Assembly (NCBI GenBank): GCA_017506865.1
Contig: JAFCMP010000064.1
Location: 290,607-354,606 of the forward strand
Origin: Tribonema minus
Taxonomy: Eukaryota > Sar > Xanthophyceae > Tribonematales > Tribonemataceae
Reading direction: 5' to 3'
Length of the DNA: 64,000 bases
The position numbers were made by a program, and so were the translations under genes. Shown here piece by piece: positions 1,008 through 64,000 of this stretch (the first letter of the stretch is position 1; each line of letters starts with the position of its first letter). The notes under the pieces are model-generated. The model did no database searches, was not told the DNA's origin, and saw only the letters and a list, made by a program, of their open reading frames with translations.

Positions 1008-4000
1008 CTGATGCCTGTCTTCTTGGTTGGATGAGATCAGCAGCATCTTTGCCCCGCCCACACCCGGCAGAGCATAGTCATCGGGCTTGAGACCATCGAT
1101 GAGGTACCTGTCACACAACGCAACAAACCACAACACCGTGGAGCCGGCTCAGCTGCAACACAGCGACATGATGCATTAGAAACATGGTCGCGGTATCGCT
1201 ATGTAGCTCTGCAGAGGCAGCCAACTGGAGTAACATCGAGTCAAACATCTGAAGACGTTGCTGACTGAGACAAACAACACAAGCGCCAGCGGAGACGGCG
1301 TGAGCGCCACCAGCTGCCTCTATCGCAGGCGACGCCAGCCGCAGATCAAACATGCGTCGCTGCAGCGTGTGTGCTGGTGCCGCGCTGAGTTGAGCGCTGC
1401 TGCACACGCAGCATTGTGCACATATGCTACAACTGACAAACGCGTAGTTCCGCTGGCAGCACGTGCGTCAACGCAATGGCATAGCAACTGCAGCGCTGTC
1501 AGACACAGAGGCACCGCTGACTGAGATCGCTGGCGCCGTCAGCTGCCACATTACCAAGCATCCGCCATACAGTAGCATGTGCGCAGGCAGTGCGCTGAGT
1601 TGAGCACTGTGTACAGCGTGTGCAACTGCCAAATGTGCAACTGAAACGTCTGTACAGCGCAGCAGCTCGCATAGGCGATGCCAGCCAACAGGTGCGCGGT
1701 GAGCGCACTCTTAGGGTAAGGGGTTTAGGTTAGGCTTAGCGTCTGGGTTAGGGTTAACCATAGTCGCTGTGTTGTAGAGAATTGAAACACGCGGTATCCC
1801 ATCCCAGCACTTGCTCTCAATAAAGCTGTATAAGAGCTTCAACAGGATCTGCTGACGCACACCTACACTTACATGACATCAGGCCGAAGCAGCTCGTCTT
1901 CAAACTGGTCCTCAGTGAGCACGAAAGCACCCTCGGCGCAAAATAGGTGTGGCTGCTCTCGTTGCCAAGATTTTTTCCGCACAACAATCCGCTGAATTTG
2001 CTCGCCTTTGCTGATTCCACAAGCCCAGTGGTACAGCAGCAGATAGCCCCACATACTTTTCCCTATTCCTGCAGACAACACAAATGTATGCGAAACAGGT
2101 CATAGGTTGGGAATTGGCAGTGCACTGCATGCATACATGCATAGTAACGTATACTTCTATATATTGTGACCAATCGTGAGACTTCATCTGTTATTGGCAG
2201 ATCATGCACTCTGAATGATTGACTCGAAAGAGTGAAATGTCTTTCTGGGTGTAATGTTTAAGCCCATGCAGTCACTGCTGCTCAGCGTGCCCAAAATGGC
2301 ATGCAGTCTATGAATGTGTCCAAGGGCTTATTAAGTATACGTACAGTAGGACAAAGATAAGACCTGGCATCTGCACTCTCTGCTCAAGCTGTGATATGCT
2401 AAAGAGCCAGCTGCAGATTGACTCCACGGGGAGCAAGACTGAATTTTACCGCACCCCCTGCTCAAGCTGTGTTGTGTTAGTCGGCTGCAGGTTGACTCCA
2501 TGGGCAGCAACACTTTGAATTCTAGCTCACTAAGAAGACTTGGCAAGTGGTTGCAACGGCGGTAAAAGGTATCTGCAGTAAAAGAAACAACAGCAATGGT
2601 TGAACGCCGCAGCAGTGGCGGACATCCTGCAACCAGGAGCAAGTGATGAATGTAGCACTTTGCAACTGACAAGCGTACAGCGTTGGCAACTCCAGCTGTG
2701 CAGCAGCACTGTGGATACATTGGCCCTGACTTTGAGAGGGAGCACAGGCCCCACGGTGGGCCTGAATGAATTTCGCACTCAAAGCACTGAGGGGCCCATT
2801 ACTCTATGACTTGAATGTGTGAACATTGTCGATGCTGGTGTGCGGCATGTATGCATGAGGGGTGGGGGGGTGGGTGTGCGGGGGGTTAGAGCGGGTCAGC
2901 CAGGCTTTAGATGGGGGAGGGGAAGAAGGGGAGGAAGGGAAGGGGGACGGGGGAGGCGGGGTAGCCTGTTGACCAGCCTGAGGATGCGGCATCATAGCCT
3001 TCACTTGCTGCAAAGCCTGTAGCACCACATTGGGTTAGGGTTAGGCTTACCTAACCACATTGCACCTCAATCGCCTCAAAAAACACAAATCATAAAACTG
3101 CCTGTTTGTAGCAAGTACCTGCATCCCCAATGACGGCCAAGCCAATCCCACCCTTGGCAAAATAAAACCCGCATCGCTTCCTCCAAGGCTTGATACCAAA
3201 AACTGCGGATGAGAAGCTGCTGTGACAGCATGCTGTCTCCAAGAAAGAATGTGCCGCTGACTAAGCGTAGCACTTGACCGTTGTGCAGAAGCTCTGCACG
3301 AGGCAGTGCTTCCCAAAAGTCTTGCACTGATCGCCGTGCCGGACGCAGGGCTGGAGTGTCGCGCAACAAGAACAAGAAGCACAGCATGGCATTGGGCAAG
3401 GGCGTCATCAGCAAGGCTTATACCTAGTTGCTTGGCTGTCTGTTTCAAGCAATTCATGAAACCATTGTTTCAAGGTGAGTGTGATCAACGGTGAAGCATT
3501 TCGAGCATGGTGATGTGTGCATGCCACTAGTCTTGTATGTACATTGAGGGAAATGGACTTAAGAGGACGTGCAGGAGCTGTAAATTGGGCTGATCTAGGA
3601 TGGTGCAACGGCAAACATTCCAGAGGTGCAGAAGCCTTTGGCCACATGCTGTTCATCTGCACGAGAAAGATAACATCAGCATATGGCATCCCCATGCAAA
3701 GGGGAAAAAAAAAAAAGCATCAGCCACGCCAATGCCGCTGCTTGACTCATTAGGCTCTGCGCATTCACAGAAGGAACGGCAGCACACAGTCAAGCATACA
3801 TGACCACTTCAAAGATGATCGTGATGAGGGGCATACTGCTTCGACAACTCCTCAGCAACTGCCAGTACGCATTCGCACTTTTCACAGCTGCCAGTGCTCT
3901 GGCGCGTCCGCAGCTATACAGATGTGTTCAGCAGCCAATATTTGTATAACCATGTCAGGCGCAACTAGCCCTGAAGCACTGGAGAGAGGCGAGCGGCCAA

Positions 4001-7216: not shown

Positions 7217-9500
7217 CTGTAAGACAGTCACACACGTATTGAGGTAACGCGTCAGCAGCTGTGGACAAGTAAAGTCTCTGATAGAGATGAAGATAGCATT
7301 CAGTGCGTGTGTCTGTCTGTGCTCCCAATCCACCACGGCCTGCAAATTCATGCCAAGAAACTTGCAGCATAGCGTGTGCCTATTAAACCGCTGCGTTTTA
7401 CCTGAACCCTGGCGGTTTATCTTACATCCTGATGCGAGACACACACAAGGCGCAATATGACTTTTTTTCTGCTTTACCAGCACTTCCTACTTGACAGCAG
7501 CAGATTGGCATCAGCCGACATAAATCTTTGCTCCAAGGTCTGCCAAGTGCTGCCTAACCCTAACCCTAAGTTACTCACCACAAACAACCCATTGCCACGG
7601 TGTGTAGGCTGCCGCCTGGTTACTTGCATGTGGCTAGGTACCTAGGGGTACTTCACAAGATGCAGGCATTCAACTCAACATGTGTACATTGGATGCTGTT
7701 GAGGGTGCCTCAATGGCCCCAACGGCTAAGTAAGCTGCAGTGCTCAGTGCTGCATACATAGCTACATACAGTGACACTTCTTCGAGCCGTCGACAAGTCT
7801 ATGTTGTACAAACTTTGCTGCTTACAGGAGGTGCTTTCATGACGATGAACTTGCTTCAAAAGGGACCAGGCTAAAAACTATCTGCAATTATTTGCTATGC
7901 TTCAGATTCTAGGGCACGAATCAGTGTTCAGTGCCGACTTCAGCTTGCAGCACGAGAAAGGCATGAGTCAGGTGATGCAGGCATCTTATTTCAAAAGCAG
8001 GGACCACACGTCACTGGCAACTGAGCTGCTGCAGCAAGACAAGCCATGACACAGAGCCTTCTTGCACAGAACCTAGATTCAGGAGCATCCTGATACTATT
8101 AGAGTTGAAGTCAGTTCCTGGGATGCGTACACTCTTGTGCATGCGCTTCCAAGGAAACTACTACCCTTTCGCTATGGCTGGATGAAAAGCGACCATGTGT
8201 ATGATGATACAAGGTCATACATACCTACATGCCTTCAAGAAAAAATATGCCTAGCCTAGTGGAAGAACCGCGTACATGAACTGACATCAAGTTGCACACG
8301 AACGCCTGCAGTGGTGCAACGCCCCCCACCTTACCCTGACTACACCCCTACCCCTGACCCTAACCCTAAGGCACCCCACCTCGCACGGCCACAAGGTCCA
8401 TGCCCTAACCCTAAGCACCTGCACGGCTTCAGGCTGAACAGGCAACCACAATGAAGCCATTCACCATTGACAACGATGATGTGTCTAGCCCGCACACATC
8501 ATCGGGTGAGCGAAAGAGGTGGCTATCCAACAATGTCAAAGTCAATGCTGCACCATCCGACAAAATGCAGTACCGTTATACTTTGTCTACCGCACCCTTC
8601 AGCGGCACGTGAACGTCCTGCACAAAGCGAAACCAAACTCCTCAGATCACCCAAATTGCCAAGAATGTACTCTACTGCTTTTGTTCATACCATAAATCAC
8701 TTACCCAGCAATTGGGGCAATGTGCCTGGGCACTCTTAGGTCCACATCAGCATCCACCCTCACACGGCAGCCTCCTGAGGGGTCTGCGCCTTGACAACAA
8801 TTGACAAGAAGCGAGGGGCAACACAGCGCTATGCTTGATCAGCGAGAGCCGTAACCAGCACAGAGCGGCAAAACTTAAGATAGTTTGTTTGTCGTTCAGA
8901 TGTTGCAGTGCTTAGAGGATTGGTCAGCGGCAGCAAGAGATTGATGATGTTCGTTGCATTGCCAACACTGAAAATATTACAGTATACGCAAGAGCGCAGT
9001 CACTCATACTGCTTTGACGCGATGGACCTTTCGCGATCTTCTTTTGAGCCAGTACTACAGTACCACCATCCCTACACTACTATTCGTGATGATGATCATT
9101 TGATGCTGACGAACCAGACGCGTTCAATGTATTGATTTATAACGAACGGCCATAGTATGTGAATACCAACCCCCCCCCCCGTTGCTGCTGCTTATTGCAT
9201 TTACATATACAGGCACATCTTGCATAAACGTTACGACACAAGCGGGCATACACCCCTTTCATGCAGAGGAAACGAAGGATTCTGAAGCCACTGGGCAGGA
9301 CAGGGGTGATGACAAGCACACCACACTGCATCTAGGCGAACCTTTGAACATACAACATATCAAAGGCTGCACGAAATGCGGCTTTGCATGCATTCTGCAG
9401 CCGCAAGTGTACGGCATTCGGGTCACAACAAGCACAACCGATAATCTTGCGTCTCTGCACGCAGCAACGCTCAACACCCACGTGCCACACCTGGAGAGAC
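7217..9500. other. Gene-poor stretch with short interstitial telomere-like repeats
   Basis: No convincing ORF or exon. Interstitial CCCTAA-type runs occur at about 7556-7572 and 8334-8412 (several separated blocks). A poly-C run lies near 9170-9180. A possible last exon of the secretory gene to the right begins after the acceptor 'ctgcccag' near 9295, but it encodes only about 19 residues and is not claimed. Confidence 0.4.
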
Positions 9501-51120: not shown

Positions 51121-51381
51121 CTAGTAGGCTGAGGCTGTCTCACTTGGAGCTAAGCGGTTGAGTTGCTGGTGGGCTGCCAGTGGTCTTCGAGGGCCTGTCG
51201 GCACGCCTTGCCAGTAGGTGTTTCGTAGCGCACGTGCCTGGCACAGGTTCACCTCATCCTGAAGGTCGTGCTGCAGTCGGCGCCACTCCGCAGAGTGCGC
51301 CCGAGTACCCTTGCTGACAAGTGCAGCACAGGGAGCAAGCGGGGGCTGGACGGAAGTAGGAGCCGCCAAGTCCTGGAGCGC
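51121..51381 (-). CDS. Terminal exon of an unidentified gene, next to the retrotransposon insertion
   Basis: A pyrimidine-rich acceptor ('ccaaagctcag') precedes 51381, and 86 codons in phase 0 lead to a stop at 51121. The peptide includes ALQDLAAPTSVQPPLAPCAA, then AHSAEWRRLQHDLQDEVNLC, then ALRNTYWQGVPTGPRRPLAA. Its upstream exons should lie to the right, where the 12-kb retrotransposon begins only 42 bp away. The element therefore sits in this gene's intron and, with the telomere following, has removed the rest of the gene from this chromosome end. Family unknown. Confidence 0.42.
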   Translation of the reverse strand, partial: ALQDLAAPTSVQPPLAPCAALVSKGTRAHSAEWRRLQHDLQDEVNLCQARALRNTYWQGVPTGPRRPLAAHQQLNRLAPSETASAY

Positions 51382-51422
51382 CTGAGCTTTGGATATAACA
51401 AGTGCCCCAAGGAAGGGGGATC

Positions 51423-51835
51423 TGATACGGCTTGGGGGTGTATTCAGACAGTTACAGGCAGTTACACCTCACAGGTTGGCACAGGTCTCAGTAGACCTGT
51501 GTAGTCGGTGTAGACCTTGACATGTGATTGAGAGCTGGCCTGACCTTAGTTGAAGGCAGGTGCAACTAGTTGGGTCACATGCCAAAGGGCACATCAAAGT
51601 AGTATGCACAGCATCAGAACCTCCCCTGCAAGCAGCAAGCCCGAACCTTGCTGTGCCAGCCATCGTCCAGCCCCAAGCCTTCCGTCTCTCAGCAGCAGAA
51701 TAAAATATCCGGTAAGCGCATCGCGTTTCCTTTCGCATAACATTTCATTTGAGTTCTCTGAAGCGTGTCTACTTGTTTTGCTCTTCCAGCTTGCTTGTTT
51801 GCATTCATGACAGCATCACAAGGTAAGCCGCTTCA
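51423..51835 (+). repeat. 5' LTR
   Basis: It starts TGATACGG and ends ...CTTCA, 413 bp. The end is set by the primer-binding site that follows, since the 3' LTR is incomplete. It contains a perfect hairpin (CACAGGTCT/AGACCTGTG, 51480-51488 and 51493-51501) and AATAAA near 51699 as a likely R-region poly(A) signal. Confidence 0.8.
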
Positions 51836-51838
51836 ATT

Positions 51839-51854
51839 TGGCACCCGAAGACAG
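51839..51854 (+). promoter_or_regulatory. Primer-binding site
   Basis: TGGCACCCGAAGACAG begins three bases after the LTR. It starts with TGG, the complement of the tRNA CCA end, as expected for a tRNA-primed element. The tRNA was not assigned. Confidence 0.6.
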
Positions 51855-52821
51855 TCCTTACCTCGTGCTAACCCCGCTCGCAAGGGCAGCAGCGTGGTGA
51901 TCGCTGTTCAATGTATCACTGCTCGAATCGTGTCAAAGCCTTTCGAGGACCCAGATTACGTAAAGCAATACGTAAAGAACAGCCGTGGGAAGCGAGTTAA
52001 ACGTTAATCACGCTAGGTTCCTGCACTAGAATGCTTATGACGGGGCGGCGTAGTGGTGCACCGCTACGTCGTGACCCGCCCCCTTGATGTCAACGACGCA
52101 GTGCGTGCTGCACGGGTCTGAGCAGCAATGAACATGCAACTTCATTTAGCTGGCCTTATTCTGCGGCTCATCTGTGGTTGATGAACGTGGTCACGTGGAC
52201 CCATATAGGGCATCGAGGGTAGACCCGTGCGGTAGCGCGCTGTGTACACCAGCTTGCGCGCCGTACACTATCACGTCACGAACGCACCAGAGTCTCCCGG
52301 GAGAACGCGCGGAGATCCTTTAGGGGGGACACGTGATAGCTTGTGTATCAGAAGTCACAGAAACGGTAGTGACTTGTCATAGACAGTGTTAAGTGGTTGC
52401 ACTCGAGAAGTCTCGAGAAAAAGCGCACAAAGGGGCATGCGCTGCCACTTTTCTGGCTGTAACGGTTGCCTATGACTAGAATAAAAACCCTACCGCATGC
52501 TCTTCCTTAGTAATTTGCTCTAAAGCTGATATGACTAGCTTTTTGCAAAGAAGGGGGAGAGGAGTCTAGCTTAAGAGCAAAGCGATGCAATTTTGCTTCA
52601 TGATTGTACGGCCGCAATTGTGTTGCAGAATTGACAACGCGGTCGATCTGTACAACTGCTATGTCAAACTGGCTGGCTTGCAGTTCAGAGTGCCCTAGTA
52701 GCATCAGACCTCGTGCAGAGGCGTGCGGGGCATAGACGGCTCGTGCGCTGACAATTTAAATCATGGTTTTGTCGTCGCACTCAGCTTCATGCGCGTGAAT
52801 CGTGTGCAGGATACACCATAA
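51855..52821 (+). other. Retrotransposon leader
   Basis: About 970 bp between the primer-binding site and gag. A short plus-strand frame runs to 52007 (ending GKRVKR), without recognisable function. The packaging signal is expected here but cannot be identified by eye. Confidence 0.45.
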
Positions 52822-55800
52822 ATGGTCAAGACTGACCATGGCTCCAAGAAGCCAACGAGTGGGTCAAGCCGCAGCGGAGGTGTTAGTGGCGGTGCTAGGC
52901 CTGCTGGCAGCACTGCTGCTAAGAGCAACAAGGGCGGTCAGCGCTCCGCTACGCGCCCCGCGCCAAGCTCGGGTGACAAGCCGTCGAGCCCCCCTCCCCG
53001 GCCCGCGGCAGCGTCCGCAAGACCCAGCCAGGTCGGTGCCAGCGCGCCCGACACGTCTGCCTCGGTACGGTCCACAGAATCAGTAGTCACTGGTGCCGCA
53101 CCTCCTTTTATACGTAATTTCGCTGAGTCCAGCGACGAGCCCGGCGGTGGCGGCTCAGAAGCCGAAGCCATAGTGGCAAGGCAGTTACGTTTGAGGCAGA
53201 AAAGAGAACAGCTTGCAGCAATGAGCATTATGCTTAGCGAAGCCCAGGTAGCAGAAGGCGAGGAAGCTTTTGCACGTGCAGCTGTTGAGAAAAAACTCGC
53301 ACCAACGAAAAGCCCACGCAAGACACCGCGTGCAGCTGCAACAACCGCGCCAGTTGTGCCGGTAGCCGCGCCAGTTGTGCCGGCAGCGCCCGCGAAGTCT
53401 GCGGCGCCAGCACCTGCGAAGTCCACAGTGCCAGTTGCAGCACTAGTTGCGCCCGCGGTGGCCCCACCTAAGGTCGCGCGCAGTCAGCCGGCCAAGACGT
53501 CGGTTACGCGCGGTGCACGGGCCCCAGTTGCGGCGCCTGAAGTAGCACCGGCGGCTCCGACGCCTCAGAGCTCCAAGCCGTCAGCTAGGCTAGTGGCTCC
53601 CACATACTATACTGCACCAGCGAGGGCCCCTGAAGCCTCAGATAAATCGCCTGTGACGCAGCCGCGTCGGGGTGCAAGTGGTAAGGCGCGGCGTGTGCCA
53701 GTTGTGCCACGTAGCGTGCCAGTCGTGCAAAGTGCGCCAGTTGTGCCACGTAGCGCGCCCGTCATACCGCAAAAGCCAGTTGAGCAACAAGCGGCAGAGC
53801 GACGGAGGGCAGTTAGGCAACTGCTTGAGTCTTCTGAGTCATCTGGTGATGAGGGTGGTGTGCCCTTTGATCCTGAGGGCACAGATGAGGCTTATGACCA
53901 GTGGCGTGAGGGCATCGAAGCTCGCGTCGAGGCACATAAGCGAGCTGCCAAGGCCGCCAAAACGGCTGCAACGTTCGCCGAAGTTCACGAGCGTGCCCTT
54001 TACGAACGCCTTGGCGAGCTCCAGCTTCGCGTCACCAGAGCTCCCAGTGAGAGCAAGAACATGGTGAAGAACTCACTGCTGCCGATGGCGCGGACGTTCG
54101 CTGCGGAGCAGGCCGAAGAGGTGCGCAAGCATAATGTTGCACTTCTGGAAAAACGTGGTCATGACTTCAAAGCTAGCCAGTTCGGCGAACTGCTGACCAT
54201 AGGTGAACACCGTAAGCGGTCCAATAGTTGGCATCGCTTCGCCTTCGGCACAGGCAACGGTGAGGAGGCGGAACTCTGGCGAATGCTAAGGGAGTTCGAG
54301 AACACGCCTCTGGTCACCGAGGAGGCGCGCCTAGCTGCGGACACTTACCCGCGCAACTTGGTGACGCACCCGTTCCTCAACACTGACGGGCACTCCGACA
54401 CGTCGGACGACGACGCAGCCGGCGCAGCTGCGAGTCCGCGTGAAGATGGCGCAGTGGCCGGCGTAGCCACCAGCGCATCGGCTCTAGGTGAGAGCATTAG
54501 GACTGCGGGGGCAGTAGAACCCTCGTACTCCTCAGTTGCCATGACGGCGCGGAAACCCAAAGTTGACTTGAGGGGTTTCGGCGGCACTGGCGTCGTCATT
54601 GTAACGCAAGTAGGCAGGCTTGAAGCTTCCATTAGAGCTTTTGAGCGTAGCTGCGACACGCGTGGCGTGCCCAAGTCGGCCTACTCAGAAGCGCTGTTGC
54701 AGAGTCTGACCAAGAGTCAGTACGCTGATCTGACCAGCGCAGTCACCAATGAGCGCACGGGAATGCTAGAAACTCGTGCGTTTAGTGATTTGTCTTATGA
54801 GCAGATGGTGCAATGCCTTACGGCAGCGTACGATAGCACATCTGCCAGGCAAATAGCACTTCAAAAGTATCATGAACTCACGCGTACCTCCGGTACCAGC
54901 CCCGAAGTGTGGGGCAGGGAGGTAGTTGCAGCCGCGCACGACGCCGGCTGCGCGGACAACCAGCAAATTGTTCGTATGAAGTTCGTTCATGAACTGCCAT
55001 TATGCTGCCGTCAAGAAGTAAACGGCATGTATGAGACCTGGGATCTAAAGAACACCGCTTTTCCCAAGGTCGTGGCAACTGCCCAGCAAAAGTGGCAGGC
55101 AGCGCCTATTGACGAGCGCGAGACTCGAAATGTTGTGTCTGCAATGGCCGCGGCACACATCTCAACCCCCCCCTACTCTGACACAGGCAAGCGCCCTGCC
55201 AAGGATGGGTGGAGCGTGGTCAGTAACGACCATCGCTATAAAAAGAAGAATAAGCTTTCGGCTGTTCGCGCTGTGTTGGCGGGGCTGAGCGCTAACGAGC
55301 GTCGCCAGCTTGGAGTCAGCGACCGCGCGCCGCAGGGCAAGGCTAGCTCCGCAGGCGATAACGGCGGCGGCGGAGCCAAGCCCCAGAGCAACTTCAAGTG
55401 TCTTGGCTGCAGAGTGAACCAGGGAGACTGGGACACACTTATGCGGCACAAGACTACCTGCCCTCAGTGCATTGCGCACCGAAAGAGGATGGCAGAAAAG
55501 CACCGCCAAGGTGAATCACACTTGCAGTTGTCTGCTGCCTTGGTAGGAAGTGACTTGCCTGCTGCAAGTTCAGCATCAGCAATCAGTGAATTGCCTGGTG
55601 TAGTTAGAGCAGATGCATGTTCGGCACAGGTAGCTGAGCATGCCACTGACGCTGTTTACGATGTCTCTTTGCGCGCGCAGATGGCGGCAATTGAGGGTGG
55701 GCCAGAGCCACCACCCAGAGTTATCAAACACGCGTCTATCTGCTGTAGGGCGCTAGGAGGCGCCATAGCTGGGGGTAAGTTGACCTCTAGAGCAGGTTTT

Positions 55801-58800
55801 GTAACACGCACAGTGCTTGCAGTTGACAAGAATGTCAAGGCAATTGAGGCTCTGCATAAAGTTCATCCAGAAGTGCCCACAATGACTGCATGCATGACTG
55901 ATGCGAAGGTTGTTGCACGTCTTCTTGACGAGAAACCTGACATCACCACCATCTCCCCGCCCTGCACAGATTTTTCGGCAGAGGGCAAGAAGGTCGAGGG
56001 CGAAGCTGCCGAGTGCACGGTTCATGCCGCACGGCTCATCGTGCGAGCCAAGCTTCAAGTGGTGTTGTACGAGAATGTGCCCGGAGTGCTAGTGTCACGC
56101 GCGTTTGCACGCGCAGTGCGCATTCTTAAGGCTGCTGGTTACATGCTGTACATTGCCAAGTTAAAGGCTTCTGAGTTTGAAGTACCTTGCAGGAGGCAGA
56201 GAGTGTACATTGTCATAGTACCAGCAGGGGTGGCCTCACGTGAGGCACTCCAGAGGTTCGGTGCGGTAATAAATACCAAGCGTTTACACAGCAGACCCAC
56301 ATCTGTTCGCTCTCGCTTGCGCTGCCCCGAACGCACATTCTTCTTGCAACCACGCAGTGCTCAGCACCCTGGTGTTTTGGATGCTGATGGCTTGTTGCCT
56401 AGCCCAGTGCGCAGACTGCCTGGTAGGCCCACTGCGAGTTATGTTGCACATGCAAAGGACGCTGGCCCAGTGGCATCTGCCCGCTTGCTGTCGCTTGCGG
56501 AAATGGCGGTGCTCATGACGTATTATCATGAATTACCAGCGAGTGCATGCAGTAGTGATGTACGGCGTTACATTGCAGACTTGTTCATCCCAGAGATGGC
56601 ATTTCACTTGTTCGTGGCAATTGAGGCCTCAGGCCTGTGCACACTGCCAGAGCAACAGGTACGTTTGCCGCGTAGGTCAGACTCTACGTTGAGGCATTCA
56701 GTTGACTGCCCGCCCCCATCTTGGTTGGCTGGTCAGAGTGGTTCGCTGGTGCAGGCCGCTACCGCGGTACACGCAGCGCCCTCGTCAAGTGCACACTGCT
56801 CAGCAGCAGTGGCGCGTAGCATACATGCAAAGGCGCATGATGCAGGGTATGCAGAGGTACCCATAATTCCGATGCGCAGTGCATGGGAAGAGCCAGAGGT
56901 AGACTTGGCTGTGGTGCAGCCCGGCATGGCTGACATCGTGGAAGTCGATGACTCTGACTCAGGGTCTGACTCTGAGTGGGACTCACAGTCAGTTATGAGC
57001 GTTTGCAGTAGCGCAGACGACATGGACATTGACACAGAAATCAGTGCTCCACCCATTGCGGCCGCAGCGGCACGCAAGAAGCTCGGCGGCGGTACAGACC
57101 CGCGCCTTGCCCCAGGTGAGTTGAAGGCAGCGCTCAGGCGCGCTGGCCTTGATGCTCAGTCTCTAGGCATATTAGACCATGTGCCAGGTGTCAGCAAGTT
57201 AGACACAGCCCCACCAGTGAGTGTGGCAGAGACAATTAAGAATCTCACAGAAGAGATCACAAAACCGAAGGAACCAGTCAAGTTACCTCATGTAGGCCTT
57301 GCAGTAGGGTCCCCTGAGCCTAGCTCGGTAGAGCGCTCCAAGTCGGAGGCTCCAGTGGAGTACATACGCCCAGTAGCCGGTGTTGTACCTCCAGGGCAGA
57401 TGTTTGTGTCCGCGTCGTTACGCGTACAAAGCAACTCTCAGACGCCCAAAGAACTCTATGTGCGCGCCATGGTAGACTGCGGTGCGACCGTAACCATCAT
57501 GGGCAAGCGCATTGCAGACAAGCTCCCCAACAGCTATGTATGTACACCTCAGCAAGGTGACTACACTGAGATCCTCTTGGCAGACGGCAAGACGTCGCTG
57601 CAGATCAGTGGTGTGGTCAATGCATGGCTGCGGTTTAAGAACAAGATGTTCTTGCACAAGTTCTATGTGGTGAACGCACCCATGGACGTGCTCTTAGGTA
57701 CGGATTTCTTTGCCCCGCATGGCTCAGTCATCTCGTATCACGGCGGTAGCCCAGCCTTCTTCCCAGGGGGACTAAAAGGTGTGGCCATACGCCCCATGCA
57801 CGACAAGAATCGCGCAGACAACGCGAACGCGCATGCGGCAGCACTAGCCAGTTGCAAGGGCAATGGCAGCGCTGAGAGCACTGAGGCACCAGACAAGCCT
57901 CAGCAGTGCTCAGCTAGGATGGCATATAACACTGTACTGGCACCATCGTTGGAGACGATTGTGGATTTCACGCTGCTACCAAAGCCAAAGCGCGTGCAGC
58001 CCTATGAGGCATTGCTCATACCAGAAGAGACAGTGACTACAGAAATGATGAGAGGCAAAGGTGTTAAGGCAAATATCACCGCTCTCACCGTAAATGCCAG
58101 CGGCACGATATACGCTACATTGAGCAACACTTCAATGTACCCGGTTTACGTGCGCCGCAACACGTATTGGGGAAAAGTGACTCCAATTAAGGCTGATGAT
58201 CTGCTAGAAGTGCAGACAGCTACTCAGCAGGCTCTAGAAGCCAAACTGCTAGTGATAGCAGCCAAAAGGCACTCTGAAAATGCTAAGTTAGTGGCAGAAT
58301 TAGCTGCTAGCATAGGCAAGACTGCCAAAGAGGTTGCACAAGAAGTGCAACGGCTGGCAGACCTTAGCCAGCGCCACAATGACCAGCTAGAAAACTGCAC
58401 GGATGCAGAGCTGGAGGAAATCCTTGTGAAAGATGGCAGGCTTGCGCCTCATTTGCAAGGAAGGGGGAAAGATGGGGTACTTTTAAAAACAAAAGCACTT
58501 GACATGCTAATAAAGCACAGGAATGTCTTTGCTAAGGACCCTAAAAACCCTCGAGTCACTCAGCATTTTGAGATTGATGTTGACACTCAGACGGCCAAGC
58601 CGGTGGCGGACAAGGCACGCCATTGGGCTTTCAAAGAAGCCGAGTACATCATGAAACAGATTCAGATGATGGCAAAGCGCCAACAGATTGAGCCATCAGC
58701 TAGTGCGTGGGCAAGCAACCCAGTACTAGTGGTTCAAGGCGACAAGATCCGCTTCTGCATAGACTTCAGGAAGTTGAATGCGGTCACGAAGCGTGATAGT

Positions 58801-61800
58801 CATGGCTTAGGCAACATGGATGACATGATGCGGGCTGTGCAAGGTGCCAGGATTTTATCTTCGTTAGATCTGGCAGCGGGTTACCATCAGATCCCGCTGG
58901 CGAAGAATGCGGTCACGAAGCGTGATAGTCATGGCCTAGGCAACATGGATGACATGATGCGGGCTGTGCAAGGTGCCAGGATTTTATCTTCGTTAGATCT
59001 GGCAGCGGGTTACCATCAGATCCCGCTGGCGAAGACGGCTAAGGCCAAGACGGCCTTCAGAGCCCCAGACGGCTCGTTGTGGCACTACAAGGTGGCGCCA
59101 TTCGGGCTGGTGAACTTGCCAGCGCAGTTCACGAGATTGATGCACCAAGTGCTGGGAGATGCCTTAGGCTCCCACGCGCTAGTGTACATAGATGACGTGT
59201 TGGTGTATGGCACGGACATCGAGGAGCACATCGAGCAGTTAGATGATGTTCTTGGCCGCATAGGCGCGGCGGGCATGAGTGTATCTCGCCCAAAGTGTCA
59301 GCTGTTTCAAGCTGAAGTCAAGTTCCTAGGCCATATAGTTGGCGCCGCTGGAACAAGACCAGACCCTGACAAGGTCAAGGCCATGCTTGACATGAGCCCC
59401 CCACTGAAAGGCGGGGTACCAGACAAGCAGTTGGTACAAGTGGTTATGGGAGTGTTTAACTATTACAGGCGATATGTACCCAACTTTGGGGCGATATCAG
59501 AGCCTATAGTAGCCCTGACCAAGAACAAAGCAGTCATGCTTTGGGGGTCTGCGCAAGAGCGGGCTTTCAAGCGGCTGAAGAGTGCCATGTGCGACAGTCG
59601 CATAGTGATGCACCCAGATTTCAGTTTGCCTTTCGTATTGTACACCGACGCCTCCAAGACGGCGACGGCAGGTGTGCTTACACAGTTCAGACCTGTGAGT
59701 GAGGTCGAAAGGGCAACAGCGGGACAGCCATATGCTCACACGGGCAGGCGCCGCATAGCTGAAGGCGAGGAGGTCAGAGAAGTAGTCGTTGGCTACTTCA
59801 GCAAGCTGAACTCTGAACCCGACGCGAAGTTAGGAGCGACGGCAGTAGAGTGTCTGGCAGTAGTGCTGGCGCTCAACCACTTCAGGCCTTACATTTGGGG
59901 TAACCCCGTTACAGTGGTCACAGATGCCGCTGCGCTCAGGTGGCTGTTGACGTTACAAGACTACAACGGCAAGCTACTAAGATGGGCCATGCGCATACAG
60001 GAGTATGACGTTACCATTCAGCACAGGCCTGGCAAAAGGAATGCCAATGCTGATGCCCCATCCAGGCTGCCACAGCAGGCAGAGTTAGATGCTGAGCGCT
60101 CTACGGAGCCAGCAGACGAACAGTGGCCAGACGCAGTCCCGAGCATGGACGCACCGCCGTCAGGTGTGCGCTTTGCGGACGAGGCCACGAGAACGCACAA
60201 GGTGGCCGACGTGAACAGCTGTCGTGGGTACACGGCGGACGCACGTTACGGGCCAGCGTTCAAGTTCAACGAGGCCGTCGCCATATCAGGCGCGGTGGCC
60301 GCTAGGTTAGCCGCTCTGACAGCTGTGGAGCTAGCGCAGTTGTTGGACAGAAGGCTAGATGACTCCACGGTGGAGGAAGCTGAGGTTGATGAAGTTGAGA
60401 TCAACACAGCGTATGCAGAGCCAGTCAATAAGTACACCGGCTCGTGGGAGCATTCCCAAGCGCAGCGACTCTTAAGGCAGATCGCATGCGACAGGCGACG
60501 CAGCATCAGCTCAAAGAGGGCCAAGTGCAGCGTCACCACGGCTCAGCCGGCGGCAGACTCATTGGAAGAAGGAGAGATTCCAGAGGTAGAAGCTGCTGCT
60601 GATGCAGATGAGGCAGACGAGCCACCGGATGGCGAAGCTGTTTTAGGCAAGCGCAAGAAGACGCTGCCAAGGCCAGAAGTAGTGCAGTTGCTGAAACGGG
60701 TGGCCGAGGGAGACTCGCCTGCCACGCCAGCAATGCTCAGCAGAGCCGCATTTCTTGAAGTTCAGAAAGCGGACGGTTTCTGTCAAGCAGTGAGCAAGAT
60801 GCTCATTGAGGGTGACATACCCGAAGGCGCGGAGCTAGCCGCTCACGTCTTAGCACAGAGAGAGCAGTATACCATCGAGGAAGATGGCCTCTTAGTGCAC
60901 AGTTCAACGAGCCACCCCAAGAGAGGTATGGTGTTGTTGCAGTGGGTCGTGCCAGTGGTGCTACGAACCCTAGTCATGCGTCTAGGGCATGATGACGCGA
61001 GCGCTATGCATTGCGGCATAGGCGCTACGCACACGCGTATATTCGAGAGGTATTTCTGGCCTGGTATGGGCGCGGACATACGAACGTACGTGCAGAGCTG
61101 CATGACATGCCTCGAGCGCAAACGCGCCAGCTCCACTCAGTACAGACAGTGGTTAGCTGAGCCCGTGCGTATGTGGCAGCGGCTCAACATAGACATCACA
61201 GAGCCTGGTATACAGTCCACGGCAGGGCACAGATATGTCCTGACCATAGTGGAAGCAAGGTCCGGCTTCGTGTGGCTCTCGGCCATGCACGGCCAGGGAA
61301 CGCGCGATGTTACCCCGCACCTCATGACAGTGTTCCTTGAGGTTGGAGCATTAGTGGAGGAACTATGCTCAGACAAGGGCAAAGTCTTCCTTGGCAATGT
61401 GGTCAGTGACCTTTGCAGAGCGTTTAAAGTTAAACGCATAGAGACCAGTGCATACCACCCACAGACCAATGGTGTGGCAGAACATGCAAATGGTCGTGCT
61501 AAGAAGGCACTAGCATCTTGGGTCAGCGCTCAGCAGACAAACTGGCACGAAGGCTTAGAGCTCGTACAGTTTGTGTTGAGGACAACTCCCCGAGATGAAA
61601 CAGGTTTAACACGCTTTTTCTGTGTGTACGGTCGGGAAGCTTCACTGCCACATGATGCATTTATGCACGAGGATGGCAGCAGGAAGTTGGACCTACACGA
61701 AGAGATTGAGCACAAGTTAGATATGCTTGAGCTTGCAGACAAGGTGGTGTCAAAGGCGCTGCAAGTACGCGCCCAGAAGATCACCAAGCGCAATGAAGCT

Positions 61801-62952
61801 ATTAAGCGCGCGGTGAAGTTCGCCGTCGGTGACTATGTCATGATACGGCTACCCAGGCAAAGAGACAGGTCGGCTGCTCTTGATGCCAGGTATGTGGGGC
61901 CTTGGCAGATCGAGGCTCGCACAGGCGAATCAGGCCTCTCATTCATCTGCAGGATGATGGGCAGAAGAGTTAGACACACCACAGCTCATGTTGAGAACAT
62001 GAAGCCCTTCCACATGAGGCCTAGTGCCATGTTGGAGCCAGGTGTGCACGCCATGCTGAGCCCCCGACAAGTGGAGGAGCTAGCAGATGGTGAGAAGTTA
62101 TACGGAGTTCTGGACCGCCAAGCGGGCCCCAATGGCTCGTGGCAGTACAAATGGCAGTCCATAGATGGCAAGTCACATGCGTGGGTGTCAGAGGATGACA
62201 TGCTGCAAGAAGTGACGCCATGGACCTTAGACGCTTTTCACGCGCTCTATGAGCTGCGCAACGAAGGAAGGTTGCCGGCATATGCCATCAGGCCCACACC
62301 TAAGGAGGATGCTGGCATGCGCCGAGAGAGCGCGCTGCAACTCTATCCCATCGGCACGGCGCTGGTCAGGGAGCACAGAACGGTAGTGGGCGGCCCGATC
62401 ACTTACGTGTGGGGGGCCGTTAAGAACTTTGTGTCACCATACTGGAGGATCAGATATGAGGATGGTGAGTGGGAACAGATGACCCGTACACAGGTCAAGT
62501 CTGCCATACAGTTGGCAGAGGCAGTGCGTGACAAAGTCAAGAAGTTGCAGGCGCAAAGCGCGCCGGACAGCGCGAGTAGTGCAAGTCCCAACTCTCAGGT
62601 CACGCGAGGTCTGCCATCTTCCCAAACTAGTTCTGAGGCAAGCTCAGCCCAAGATTCTGCTCAGCCGCAGATCTCGCTGGTAAGGCTGCCCAAACTGCCA
62701 TCTGATTTCGGATCAGACTTTGAGGGTGAAGTGATCTGGTGTCACTTTCCAACAGGCTGGAGCCGCGGCGTCCTGGGTGAGTTTTACCCCGCCAGGTCGC
62801 AGTTCACGTTTGATGTACTATTCGACGGTGAGAAGACTGTCAGGCGTATGCGCTTACGTCCGGGTGACTACCGCACGCCAAAAGACAGCCCATACTCATC
62901 ATGGAACGTGCTCGCCGCTCGCAGTATATCCTCAGAGGAGAGTGCGAAGTAG
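52822..62952 (+). CDS. Gag-DNMT-Pol polyprotein (3376 aa) with C-terminal Tudor-like modules
   Basis: One frame from the ATG at 52822. Residues 1-330 are Pro/Ala-rich; about 585-765 are capsid-like. Cys/His fingers follow (C860, C863, H876, C880, C883, H886). Residues about 973-1272 are a C5-cytosine methyltransferase: motif I region ICCRALGGAIAGG, motif IV SPPCTDF (Cys1048), motif VI ENV (1084-1086), motif VIII QRVYIV (1126), motif IX-like RLLSLAEMAVLM (1221), motif X-like DLFIPEMAFHL (1253). Protease: VDCGAT (Asp1552) and LLGTDFF. Reverse transcriptase from about 1926, with SSLDLAAGYHQIPL twice (Asp2016, Asp2059) and YIDD (2122-2125). RNase H: YTDAS (Asp2276). Integrase: HHCC finger from about 2723 and D2791, D2851, E2887 (D-D-35-E). 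Tudor/Agenet-like folds: about 3174-3235 and 3301-3365. The 43-residue repeat probably disables reverse transcription in this copy. Confidence 0.95.
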   Translation: MVKTDHGSKKPTSGSSRSGGVSGGARPAGSTAAKSNKGGQRSATRPAPSSGDKPSSPPPRPAAASARPSQVGASAPDTSASVRSTESVVTGAAPPFIRNFAESSDEPGGGGSEAEAIVARQLRLRQKREQLAAMSIMLSEAQVAEGEEAFARAAVEKKLAPTKSPRKTPRAAATTAPVVPVAAPVVPAAPAKSAAPAPAKSTVPVAALVAPAVAPPKVARSQPAKTSVTRGARAPVAAPEVAPAAPTPQSSKPSARLVAPTYYTAPARAPEASDKSPVTQPRRGASGKARRVPVVPRSVPVVQSAPVVPRSAPVIPQKPVEQQAAERRRAVRQLLESSESSGDEGGVPFDPEGTDEAYDQWREGIEARVEAHKRAAKAAKTAATFAEVHERALYERLGELQLRVTRAPSESKNMVKNSLLPMARTFAAEQAEEVRKHNVALLEKRGHDFKASQFGELLTIGEHRKRSNSWHRFAFGTGNGEEAELWRMLREFENTPLVTEEARLAADTYPRNLVTHPFLNTDGHSDTSDDDAAGAAASPREDGAVAGVATSASALGESIRTAGAVEPSYSSVAMTARKPKVDLRGFGGTGVVIVTQVGRLEASIRAFERSCDTRGVPKSAYSEALLQSLTKSQYADLTSAVTNERTGMLETRAFSDLSYEQMVQCLTAAYDSTSARQIALQKYHELTRTSGTSPEVWGREVVAAAHDAGCADNQQIVRMKFVHELPLCCRQEVNGMYETWDLKNTAFPKVVATAQQKWQAAPIDERETRNVVSAMAAAHISTPPYSDTGKRPAKDGWSVVSNDHRYKKKNKLSAVRAVLAGLSANERRQLGVSDRAPQGKASSAGDNGGGGAKPQSNFKCLGCRVNQGDWDTLMRHKTTCPQCIAHRKRMAEKHRQGESHLQLSAALVGSDLPAASSASAISELPGVVRADACSAQVAEHATDAVYDVSLRAQMAAIEGGPEPPPRVIKHASICCRALGGAIAGGKLTSRAGFVTRTVLAVDKNVKAIEALHKVHPEVPTMTACMTDAKVVARLLDEKPDITTISPPCTDFSAEGKKVEGEAAECTVHAARLIVRAKLQVVLYENVPGVLVSRAFARAVRILKAAGYMLYIAKLKASEFEVPCRRQRVYIVIVPAGVASREALQRFGAVINTKRLHSRPTSVRSRLRCPERTFFLQPRSAQHPGVLDADGLLPSPVRRLPGRPTASYVAHAKDAGPVASARLLSLAEMAVLMTYYHELPASACSSDVRRYIADLFIPEMAFHLFVAIEASGLCTLPEQQVRLPRRSDSTLRHSVDCPPPSWLAGQSGSLVQAATAVHAAPSSSAHCSAAVARSIHAKAHDAGYAEVPIIPMRSAWEEPEVDLAVVQPGMADIVEVDDSDSGSDSEWDSQSVMSVCSSADDMDIDTEISAPPIAAAAARKKLGGGTDPRLAPGELKAALRRAGLDAQSLGILDHVPGVSKLDTAPPVSVAETIKNLTEEITKPKEPVKLPHVGLAVGSPEPSSVERSKSEAPVEYIRPVAGVVPPGQMFVSASLRVQSNSQTPKELYVRAMVDCGATVTIMGKRIADKLPNSYVCTPQQGDYTEILLADGKTSLQISGVVNAWLRFKNKMFLHKFYVVNAPMDVLLGTDFFAPHGSVISYHGGSPAFFPGGLKGVAIRPMHDKNRADNANAHAAALASCKGNGSAESTEAPDKPQQCSARMAYNTVLAPSLETIVDFTLLPKPKRVQPYEALLIPEETVTTEMMRGKGVKANITALTVNASGTIYATLSNTSMYPVYVRRNTYWGKVTPIKADDLLEVQTATQQALEAKLLVIAAKRHSENAKLVAELAASIGKTAKEVAQEVQRLADLSQRHNDQLENCTDAELEEILVKDGRLAPHLQGRGKDGVLLKTKALDMLIKHRNVFAKDPKNPRVTQHFEIDVDTQTAKPVADKARHWAFKEAEYIMKQIQMMAKRQQIEPSASAWASNPVLVVQGDKIRFCIDFRKLNAVTKRDSHGLGNMDDMMRAVQGARILSSLDLAAGYHQIPLAKNAVTKRDSHGLGNMDDMMRAVQGARILSSLDLAAGYHQIPLAKTAKAKTAFRAPDGSLWHYKVAPFGLVNLPAQFTRLMHQVLGDALGSHALVYIDDVLVYGTDIEEHIEQLDDVLGRIGAAGMSVSRPKCQLFQAEVKFLGHIVGAAGTRPDPDKVKAMLDMSPPLKGGVPDKQLVQVVMGVFNYYRRYVPNFGAISEPIVALTKNKAVMLWGSAQERAFKRLKSAMCDSRIVMHPDFSLPFVLYTDASKTATAGVLTQFRPVSEVERATAGQPYAHTGRRRIAEGEEVREVVVGYFSKLNSEPDAKLGATAVECLAVVLALNHFRPYIWGNPVTVVTDAAALRWLLTLQDYNGKLLRWAMRIQEYDVTIQHRPGKRNANADAPSRLPQQAELDAERSTEPADEQWPDAVPSMDAPPSGVRFADEATRTHKVADVNSCRGYTADARYGPAFKFNEAVAISGAVAARLAALTAVELAQLLDRRLDDSTVEEAEVDEVEINTAYAEPVNKYTGSWEHSQAQRLLRQIACDRRRSISSKRAKCSVTTAQPAADSLEEGEIPEVEAAADADEADEPPDGEAVLGKRKKTLPRPEVVQLLKRVAEGDSPATPAMLSRAAFLEVQKADGFCQAVSKMLIEGDIPEGAELAAHVLAQREQYTIEEDGLLVHSSTSHPKRGMVLLQWVVPVVLRTLVMRLGHDDASAMHCGIGATHTRIFERYFWPGMGADIRTYVQSCMTCLERKRASSTQYRQWLAEPVRMWQRLNIDITEPGIQSTAGHRYVLTIVEARSGFVWLSAMHGQGTRDVTPHLMTVFLEVGALVEELCSDKGKVFLGNVVSDLCRAFKVKRIETSAYHPQTNGVAEHANGRAKKALASWVSAQQTNWHEGLELVQFVLRTTPRDETGLTRFFCVYGREASLPHDAFMHEDGSRKLDLHEEIEHKLDMLELADKVVSKALQVRAQKITKRNEAIKRAVKFAVGDYVMIRLPRQRDRSAALDARYVGPWQIEARTGESGLSFICRMMGRRVRHTTAHVENMKPFHMRPSAMLEPGVHAMLSPRQVEELADGEKLYGVLDRQAGPNGSWQYKWQSIDGKSHAWVSEDDMLQEVTPWTLDAFHALYELRNEGRLPAYAIRPTPKEDAGMRRESALQLYPIGTALVREHRTVVGGPITYVWGAVKNFVSPYWRIRYEDGEWEQMTRTQVKSAIQLAEAVRDKVKKLQAQSAPDSASSASPNSQVTRGLPSSQTSSEASSAQDSAQPQISLVRLPKLPSDFGSDFEGEVIWCHFPTGWSRGVLGEFYPARSQFTFDVLFDGEKTVRRMRLRPGDYRTPKDSPYSSWNVLAARSISSEESAK
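55738..56640 (+). other. C5-cytosine DNA methyltransferase domain within the polyprotein
   Basis: About 300 residues between the gag zinc fingers and the protease. The catalytic Cys (nt 55963-55965) sits in PPC, with Glu of ENV at 56071 and QRVYIV at 56197; the spacing matches bacterial Dcm and eukaryotic DNMT catalytic domains. The motif I glycines are present but diverged (ALGG for GxGG). The target-recognition region between motifs VIII and IX is about 95 residues, short. No chromatin-reader domain is attached. It is in frame, without stops, and its key residues are conserved, so the domain itself looks functional. Confidence 0.88.
58777..59034 (+). repeat. 129-bp in-frame tandem duplication in the reverse transcriptase
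   Basis: 58777-58905 and 58906-59034 differ at one base (ggcttaggc against ggcctaggc). Each encodes NAVTKRDSHGLGNMDDMMRA through HQIPLAK, 43 residues including motif A and its catalytic Asp. Confidence 0.95.
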
Positions 62953-63180: not shown

Positions 63181-63192
63181 AAAGAAGGGGGA
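63181..63192 (+). promoter_or_regulatory. Polypurine tract
   Basis: AAAGAAGGGGGA, two bases before the 3' LTR. It is the expected plus-strand primer. Confidence 0.75.
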
Positions 63193-63194
63193 TC

Positions 63195-63505
63195 TGATAC
63201 GGCTTGGGGGTGTATTCAGACAGTTACAGGCAGTTACACCTCACAGGTTGGCACAGGTCTCAGTAGACCTGTGTAGTCGGTGTAGACCTTGACATGTGAT
63301 TGAGAGCTGGCCTGACCTTAGTTGAAGGCAGGTGCAACTAGTTGGGTCACATGCCAAAGGGCACATCAAAGTAGTATGCACAGCATCAGAACCTCCCCTG
63401 CAAGCAGCAAGCCCGAACCTTGCTGTGCCAGCCATCGTCCAGCCCCAAGCCTTCCGTCTCTCAGCAGCAGAATAAAATATCCGGTAAGCGCATCGCGTTT
63501 CCTTT
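63195..63505 (+). repeat. 3' LTR, truncated by telomere
   Basis: 311 bp, apparently identical to 51423-51733. The match ends at 'gtttccttt', where the 5' LTR continues 'cgcata' and this copy continues 'ggggtaggg'. 102 bp of LTR are missing. Confidence 0.9.
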
Positions 63506-63610
63506 GGGGTAGGGTTAGGGTTAGGGTTAGGGTTAGGGTTAGGGTTAGGGTTAGGGTTAGGGTTAGGGTTAGGGTTAGGGTTAGGGTTAGGGTTAGGGTT
63601 AGGGTTAGGG

Positions 63611-63651
<41 letters not shown>

Positions 63652-64000
63652 GGTTAGGGTTAGGGTTAGGGTTAGGGTTAGGGTTAGGGTTAGGGTTAGG
63701 GTTAGGGTTAGGGTTAGGGTTAGGGTTAGGGTTAGGGTTAGGGTTAGGGTTAGGGTTAGGGTTAGGGTTAGGGTTAGGGTTAGGGTTAGGGTTAGGGTTA
63801 GGGTTAGGGTTAGGGTTAGGGTTAGGGTTAGGGTTAGGGTTAGGGTTAGGGTTAGGGTTAGGGTTAGGGTTAGGGTTAGGGTTAGGGTTAGGGTTAGGGT
63901 TAGGGTTAGGGTTAGGGTTAGGGTTAGGGTTAGGGTTAGGGTTAGGGTTAGGGTTAGGGTTAGGGTTAGGGTTAGGGTTAGGGTTAGGGTTAGGGTTAGG
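63506..64000 (+). repeat. Telomere, TTAGGG repeats
   Basis: A continuous array to the window edge, G-rich strand running towards the end as expected for a right telomere. After the irregular start 'ggggtaggg' the units are regular TTAGGG, with one TTTAGGG at about 63629. Confidence 0.97.

Follow-up and report, generated by a model that had tools for sequence, protein, structure and literature searches.

The window analysed here, meaning the whole stretch of 64,000 nucleotides, contains a Ty3/Gypsy LTR retrotransposon that carries its own C5-cytosine DNA methyltransferase (DNMT). The family to which this element belongs is young, recently mobile and large, and its copies and substitution pattern show that the methyltransferase has been kept by purifying selection through many rounds of transposition.

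The element and its chromosomal setting

A single open frame on the plus strand (52822-62952) encodes a Gag-Pol polyprotein of 3376 aa that includes the methyltransferase and has no internal stop, and Pfam matches follow along it in the order DNA_methylase, aspartyl protease, RVT_1, RNase H, H2C2 and rve (Table 1). The uninterrupted frame with otherwise recognisable retroelement enzymes described in a first-pass annotation was thereby borne out, the protease and the integrase core matching below their curated cut-offs. That annotation had also placed a complete methyltransferase between gag and protease. The position holds, as do motifs IV (PPC), VI (ENV) and VIII (arginines), an IX/X-like half that aligns with relatives, and a PF00145 DNA_methylase match above cut-off (residues 991-1131, E 1.6e-16); motif I, on the other hand, is altered, and the first ~950 aa are called gag by position only, as no Pfam gag domain matched the ORF at E 0.1. 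Among the features typical of Ty3/Gypsy, the element has the order protease, reverse transcriptase (RT), RNase H, integrase, direct TG...CA LTRs, a primer-binding-site-like sequence and a polypurine tract.

The LTRs, an addition to the earlier annotation, were delimited using window positions 51300-51900 as a genome query: across the 40 matches scored, window included, 5' LTR copies start at query positions 121-125 (one at 109) and 3' LTR copies stop at 536-539. The 11 nt directly preceding the 5' LTR (51412-51422) are the same as the end of the polypurine tract, possibly reflecting imprecise plus-strand priming. The zinc-finger pattern of the gag-like part was found in 4 of the 13 sources scanned (the window, its own copy L009, L026 and L006), several of the others beginning too far downstream.

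Table 1. Features of the element, in window coordinates
Feature	Position	Strand	Remarks
5' LTR	51423..51835	+	413 bp, TG...CA; bounds from 40 genomic matches including the window
Primer-binding-site-like TGGCACCCGAAG	51839..51850	+	3 nt past the LTR; named by position and TGG start only
Atypical zinc finger C-x2-C-x12-H-x3-C-x2-C	55399..55470	+	pattern match from residue 860; gag-like part, 5' of methyltransferase
C5-cytosine methyltransferase domain	55711..56601	+	residues 964-1260, custom profile; motif I altered in window copy
Aspartyl protease	57460..57711	+	residues 1547-1630; PF13975/PF13650 below curated cut-off; VDCGAT active-site-like motif
129-bp in-frame tandem duplication in RT	58776..59033 (58776-58904 + 58905-59033)	+	copies 99% identical
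Reverse transcriptase	58945..59340	+	residues 2042-2173, PF00078 E 1.5e-29
RNase H	59542..60006	+	residues 2241-2395, PF17919/PF17917
Integrase zinc-binding domain (H2C2)	60949..61125	+	residues 2710-2768, PF17921
Integrase core (rve)	61177..61461	+	residues 2786-2880, PF00665 below curated cut-off
Polypurine tract	63181..63194	+	from sequence; just 5' of the 3' LTR
3' LTR	63195..63505	+	first 311 of 413 bp, 311/311 identical to 5' LTR; last 102 bp missing
Telomere repeat array (TTAGGG)n	63506..64000	+	directly abuts truncated 3' LTR; reaches window end

The window copy itself is probably defective, because it combines a duplication in its RT, an altered SAM-binding motif and a 3' LTR without its last 102 bp. 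The family as a whole is not defective. The duplication (43 aa), which could be an assembly error, lengthens the spacing between DNMT and RT, and the spacing bin at 3600 holds no other close copy. At motif I, the other 28 of the 29 copies examined have the usual family form, which exceeds that of most other rows of our motif table by one residue. Family copies free of the window copy's faults exist. Since (TTAGGG)n arrays also open contigs C2 and C3, among the places listed, the window copy is probably located at the end of a chromosome, with a telomere added inside its LTR. The junction from 3' LTR to telomere repeats (63195-64000) resembles chromosome healing within a retrotransposon, and three short interstitial pairs of telomere repeats lie on the minus strand of the window at 7558-8414 (7558, 8358 and 8403).

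The methyltransferase within the family and in other Gypsy clades

The DNMT domain has at least 128 matches in the genome (158 Mb), listed as 59 rows (56 places) at 77-100% identity, 53 rows at 47-54% and 16 rows at 38-41%; at least 123 PF00145 matches were scored, and the RT has at least 138 matches. These counts of both domain searches and the Pfam E-value rule out a chance motif match as the source of the DNMT call. Among the matches listed, a DNMT lies upstream on the same strand in 44 of the 51 RT matches of at least 90% identity (window included), 43 of these being 3.0-3.6 kb away, and a DNMT is found within 12 kb upstream of 12/19 RT matches at 69-74%, 36/45 at 62-67% and 19/23 at 58-59%. 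Overall, 111 of the 138 listed RT matches could be paired with a DNMT, 107 of them at a spacing of 2.8-3.7 kb; the four pairs that lie 6-11 kb apart may be unrelated, some unpaired RT matches fall within ~3.3 kb of a contig start, and unpaired RT matches may have a DNMT beyond those listed. The pairing drew on all 138 RT rows, on 125 of the 128 domain rows (three copies are split, and their second fragments were omitted) and on 78 of the 123 PF00145 rows, omitting those at places already covered by domain rows. Because the pairing recurs across RT matches, the DNMT is a property of the lineage rather than of the window copy.

The first-pass annotation had itself proposed looking for the domain in other copies, and its presence upstream of 44/51 listed close RT matches rejects a one-off chimaera for the family. 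More broadly, that this architecture is a one-off chimaera or an assembly artefact has next to no probability: the window copy does contain a tandem duplication and adjoin a telomere array, but the same order recurs at those close RT matches and in the metagenome relatives P0002 and P0004.

We consider the family young because the two LTRs are identical over 311/311 positions, nine further LTR copies in the genome agree with that of the window at 100% (rounded) over 478-480 bp (LTR plus leader), and long frames are open: counting the window, seven of the listed matches with ≥95% identity belong to frames of more than 3000 aa and are themselves stop-free. In a set of 30 copies, reduced to 29 by dropping L038, which a stop splits, the DNMT has a pN/pS of 0.249 (406 pairs), with motif IV intact in 29/29 copies, VI in 27/29 and VIII in 28/29. 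When subfamilies A, B, C and E of type I (the type of the window) are compared, DNMT dN/dS is 0.13-0.30; it is 0.075-0.23 in type II, 0.23 for the type IV pair and 0.147 for the type V pair (L164/L165), these ratios being rough because dS exceeds 1 in many pairs. Constraint is not visible in the L006 group of type I, where two pairs (96% and 87% aa identity) give 0.76 and 0.66; the nearly identical L071/L065 give 0.32, and two pairs lack any synonymous change. The RT is more constrained, with a dN/dS of 0.03-0.04 in the two pairs, out of six, in which dS is unsaturated. At C311:3904-4800, one DNMT match falls within an uninterrupted frame of 6208 aa, which is roughly double the normal polyprotein length and may represent an in-frame fusion of two elements.

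Position within the polyprotein varies between types. In type I, the DNMT precedes the protease in the window, and L039, L040 and L041 show DNMT, RT and RNase H at similar spacing, with no protease called by Pfam in these slices. In type II, L042 has its DNMT behind a protease (below cut-off) and ahead of RT, RNase H, integrase and chromodomain (below cut-off), and a chromodomain above cut-off is present in L043, which continues an element whose DNMT lies in L008. In type III (L161, L162), RT, RNase H and DNMT share one frame and the integrase occupies the next; in both elements a single in-frame stop parts the two (L161 2733-2735, L162 5343-5345), which may point to readthrough or be a coincidence of decay. 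In type IV (L163), the DNMT lies upstream of a decayed RT and integrase, judged to be one element by strand and distance. Type V is represented by three places examined among the RNase H matches listed (L164, L165, L166), of which L165 and L166, 99% identical, were counted as one family; in both, PF00145 begins ~870 residues ahead of the RT.

We distinguish three DNMT positions rather than five, because the protease is not placeable in types IV and V. The RT tree recovers type I (86/92), II (100/100), III (100/100) and IV+V (99/99), with long branches between them. Judging from position within the polyprotein and from the trees, Gypsy polyproteins probably took up the same DNMT stock in at least three places, whether elements exchanged it among themselves or acquired it from related donors; alternatively, one capture with later shifts inside the polyprotein may account for the several positions.

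The type V element L164 (C214:51600-56900), ~65% identical to L165/L166, carries the same domain minus the catalytic loop and with ENA in place of ENV, its frame being 3455 aa long; its domain was found by our custom profile, Pfam giving no match at 0.01. Two other RNase H matches share this frame length. An open frame of that size despite the lost loop, together with the dN/dS of the remaining domain against L165, would fit a domain that has become a structural or nucleic-acid-binding component of the particle, for which catalysis is no longer needed. We consider this unlikely for the family, as all but one of the 22 retrotransposon rows in the motif table, and 29/29 copies of the window family, keep the catalytic cysteine, and the L164/L165 constraint may sit on the L165 branch.

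Affinities of the enzyme and its host

The DNMT tree recovers the same groups as the RT tree, with type I at 98/91 (57 rows) or 93/83 (54 rows). All retrotransposon DNMTs are joined at 84/93 with 57 rows, the long viral row L072 falling inside, and at 98/95 in the 54-row tree, which leaves out vir_L072, vir_L075, vir_L110, DNMT3A and L164; viral-contig rows derive from 83 loci, of which 80 had a usable ORF; dereplication left 40, and 26 were used. The retrotransposon DNMTs thus appear as a single group, separate from host DNMT2, from DNMT1 and from the enzymes of bacteria or phages, in trees whose rows hold no DNMT4, DNMT5, DNMT6 or published retrotransposon DNMT. Of the comparisons suggested in the first-pass annotation, these trees cover DNMT1 and bacterial enzymes. 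The deep order of the types is uncertain: monophyly of types I-IV is not rejected (p-AU 0.494), nor are I+II alone (0.203) or I+III+IV with DNMT1 (0.115).

For types I and II, profile searches against PDB ruled out descent from DNMT3. With the type I profile, DNMT2 scores best (1.3e-12), followed by M.HhaI (1e-9) and DNMT1 (6e-6), and no DNMT3 or DRM chain appears among its 52 matches at E ≤ 10, with 44 such sequences in the library; the type II profile matches DNMT2 (6.2e-14), then 3g7u, which we take to be an E. coli enzyme, and DNMT1, with no DNMT3 chain at E ≤ 1e-3. Chain 7r76, presumably Dnmt5, matches A1 only weakly (E 0.042).

Because the nearest solved structures are DNMT2 tRNA methyltransferases, an RNA enzyme is conceivable, acting on element RNA or on the tRNA primer as DNMT2 acts on tRNA. 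DNMT2 chains (PDB 4h0n, 6fdf, 1g55) are the top matches of both profiles and share motifs I, IV, VI and VIII, but they do not form one clade with type I: DNMT2 as its sister is rejected (joint clade p-AU 0.0097), the significant part of the type I alignment to DNMT2 stops near motif VIII, and the high score may simply mirror the slow change of DNMT2. Taken together, we regard an RNA substrate as possible, if unlikely. Host DNMT2 is a separate gene (exon L004).

Querying with polyprotein residues 950-1260 returned no homolog among 2714 candidates, and a viral scan with the type I profile gave three weak loci among 39 candidate stretches. Virus-like DNMTs occur on C223 (2.1 Mb; L001, L002) and other contigs, and of the ten NCLDV capsid matches (PF04451) in the genome two are on C223; a frame beside L001 looks, by eye, like a dNMP kinase, and an endogenous giant virus is possible.

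Searched against 5.8 billion proteins (best 8000 candidates scored for each profile), type I has three strong metagenome proteins (P0002, P0003, P0004) and type II has seven (P0007-P0013) before scores drop, a metagenomic origin that we take from the sources shown. P0004 combines a type I DNMT with the linker that follows the DNMT in the window element, and P0013 has a protease-like stretch (by eye) fused ahead of a type II DNMT, so that pieces of both architectures exist outside this genome.

Two contigs that hold DNMT elements, C334 and C112, also contain fragments of the RuBisCO large subunit, each interrupted by a stop. The longer fragment is red-type: among PDB chains, nine score 109-113 bits against it, two score 92 and the others listed ≤73.5; we assume that the top entries are diatom or red algal and that the two 92-bit chains come from red-type bacteria. 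The fragments are probably plastid DNA in the nucleus of an alga of the red-plastid lineage, although another source is conceivable, and since they are red-type the host would be neither a dinoflagellate nor a charophyte. The earlier proposal of a further lineage or separate capture gains from this host and from the lack of DNMT3 affinity, and stays partial in that the published Symbiodinium and Klebsormidium sequences lie outside our trees.

Possible roles and comparison with known systems

As a whole, we hold with moderate confidence that a young family captured the methyltransferase between gag and protease and kept it, and that the enzyme marks the element's own cDNA. After capture and retention under purifying selection, and with the same DNMT group apparently placed elsewhere in the polyproteins of other Gypsy clades through capture or inter-element exchange, the enzyme would be made within Gag-Pol and packaged in the particle. 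There it would methylate cytosines of the element cDNA before or at integration, and new copies would arrive already marked; in a CpG-methylated genome, such marking could allow the cDNA to be spared or reduce what it costs the host.

Traces in the elements are consistent, and no more, with CpG methylation in the past of the copies. When the window is taken in 8-kb pieces, its observed/expected ratio of CpG is 0.65-0.84; the LTR has 0.46 and seven other element pieces have 0.73-1.0, with 1.0 in the type II element L042. Across 30 family loci, C/T differences at CpG reach 1.65x background, and private C>T changes affect 39 of ~500 CpG vs 82 of ~1704 other C (Fisher p 0.014), the site totals being approximate because they were counted on one copy rather than on gap-free columns. 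This signal is weak, comes from non-independent pairs and from elements only, and does not indicate which enzyme did the writing.

An enzyme directed at the host genome, or at competing elements or viruses, instead of its own cDNA could be suspected from the many DNMT copies per genome, from the ten NCLDV capsid matches and from the antiviral role proposed in the part of PMC6338049 considered here. A domain fused in Gag-Pol would however be expected to stay mostly confined to particles, and we consider such targets decidedly improbable.

In a wider scenario, one ancient capture would have founded a retrotransposon-borne DNMT group that domain exchange then carried into most large Gypsy lineages of this genome, and mobile enzymes, rather than host DNMT1 or DNMT3, would write much of the genomic methylation. 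The two related families of L164, L165 and L166 widen the set of DNMT-bearing Gypsy elements; queries of the genome gave nothing above 39.2 bits with human DNMT1 (88/88 candidates scored) and nothing with DNMT3A (2/2 scored), both run with no positive control in a kindred genome. We judge this scenario quite improbable. Clustered weak DNMT1-query matches (~26-39 bits) in short frames at C346:899771-902753 and C223:828691-831793 are perhaps tandem methyltransferase genes or exons.

Among the closest published systems, as far as the sections of PMC5890265 (de Mendoza et al. 2018) used here describe it, is KnitGypsy-Dnmt3 of Klebsormidium nitens, likewise a Gypsy polyprotein with a C5-methyltransferase under purifying selection (Ka/Ks < 0.2). 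Unlike that element, which has a DNMT3 enzyme and, according to a legend, DIRS-like repeats, type I here has no DNMT3/DRM match at E ≤ 10 and has ordinary direct LTRs, the host is a non-charophyte by RuBisCO type, and the genome offers several insertion points and a chromodomain-bearing type. In the same sections, SymbioDIRS-Dnmt3 is also a retrotransposon DNMT, but of the DIRS class with a tyrosine recombinase and a DNMT3, where our element has an rve integrase and LTRs; SymbioLINE-Dnmt resembles ours as an orphan, non-DNMT3 enzyme of a retrotransposon, but belongs to a LINE and has its DNMT in the frame upstream of the RT, a comparison made by description only. The first-pass annotation had cited such captures as methylating CG de novo, which those sections support for SymbioDIRS-Dnmt3, active on CG in yeast, and not for the KnitGypsy and SymbioLINE enzymes, which showed no activity in yeast, a result the authors call inconclusive.

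DIRS elements with a Dam-like N6-adenine methyltransferase (cited in PMC5890265 and PMC6338049) are likewise DNA-modifying retroelements, but differ in class and in the unrelated structure of the enzyme. In the portions considered, PMC6338049 reports DAM- and DCM-encoding retrotransposons, undivided, from stramenopiles, red algae, green algae and charophytes; the element groups given in PMC12344493 are LTR Copia and DIRS. Within the literature covered, which includes PMC9998398 and PMC12477816, lies outside preprints and most subscription papers and was seen in part, with DAM and DCM lumped in PMC6338049, no Gypsy C5-methyltransferase is described outside charophytes.

Retrotransposon cytosine methyltransferases have, in the parts of the literature covered, so far been described from two host groups, and the family reported here would add a third host lineage with a non-DNMT3 enzyme. 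Such a system would make it possible to test whether elements benefit from marking their own DNA, and whether mobile enzymes shape or replace the methylome of their host.
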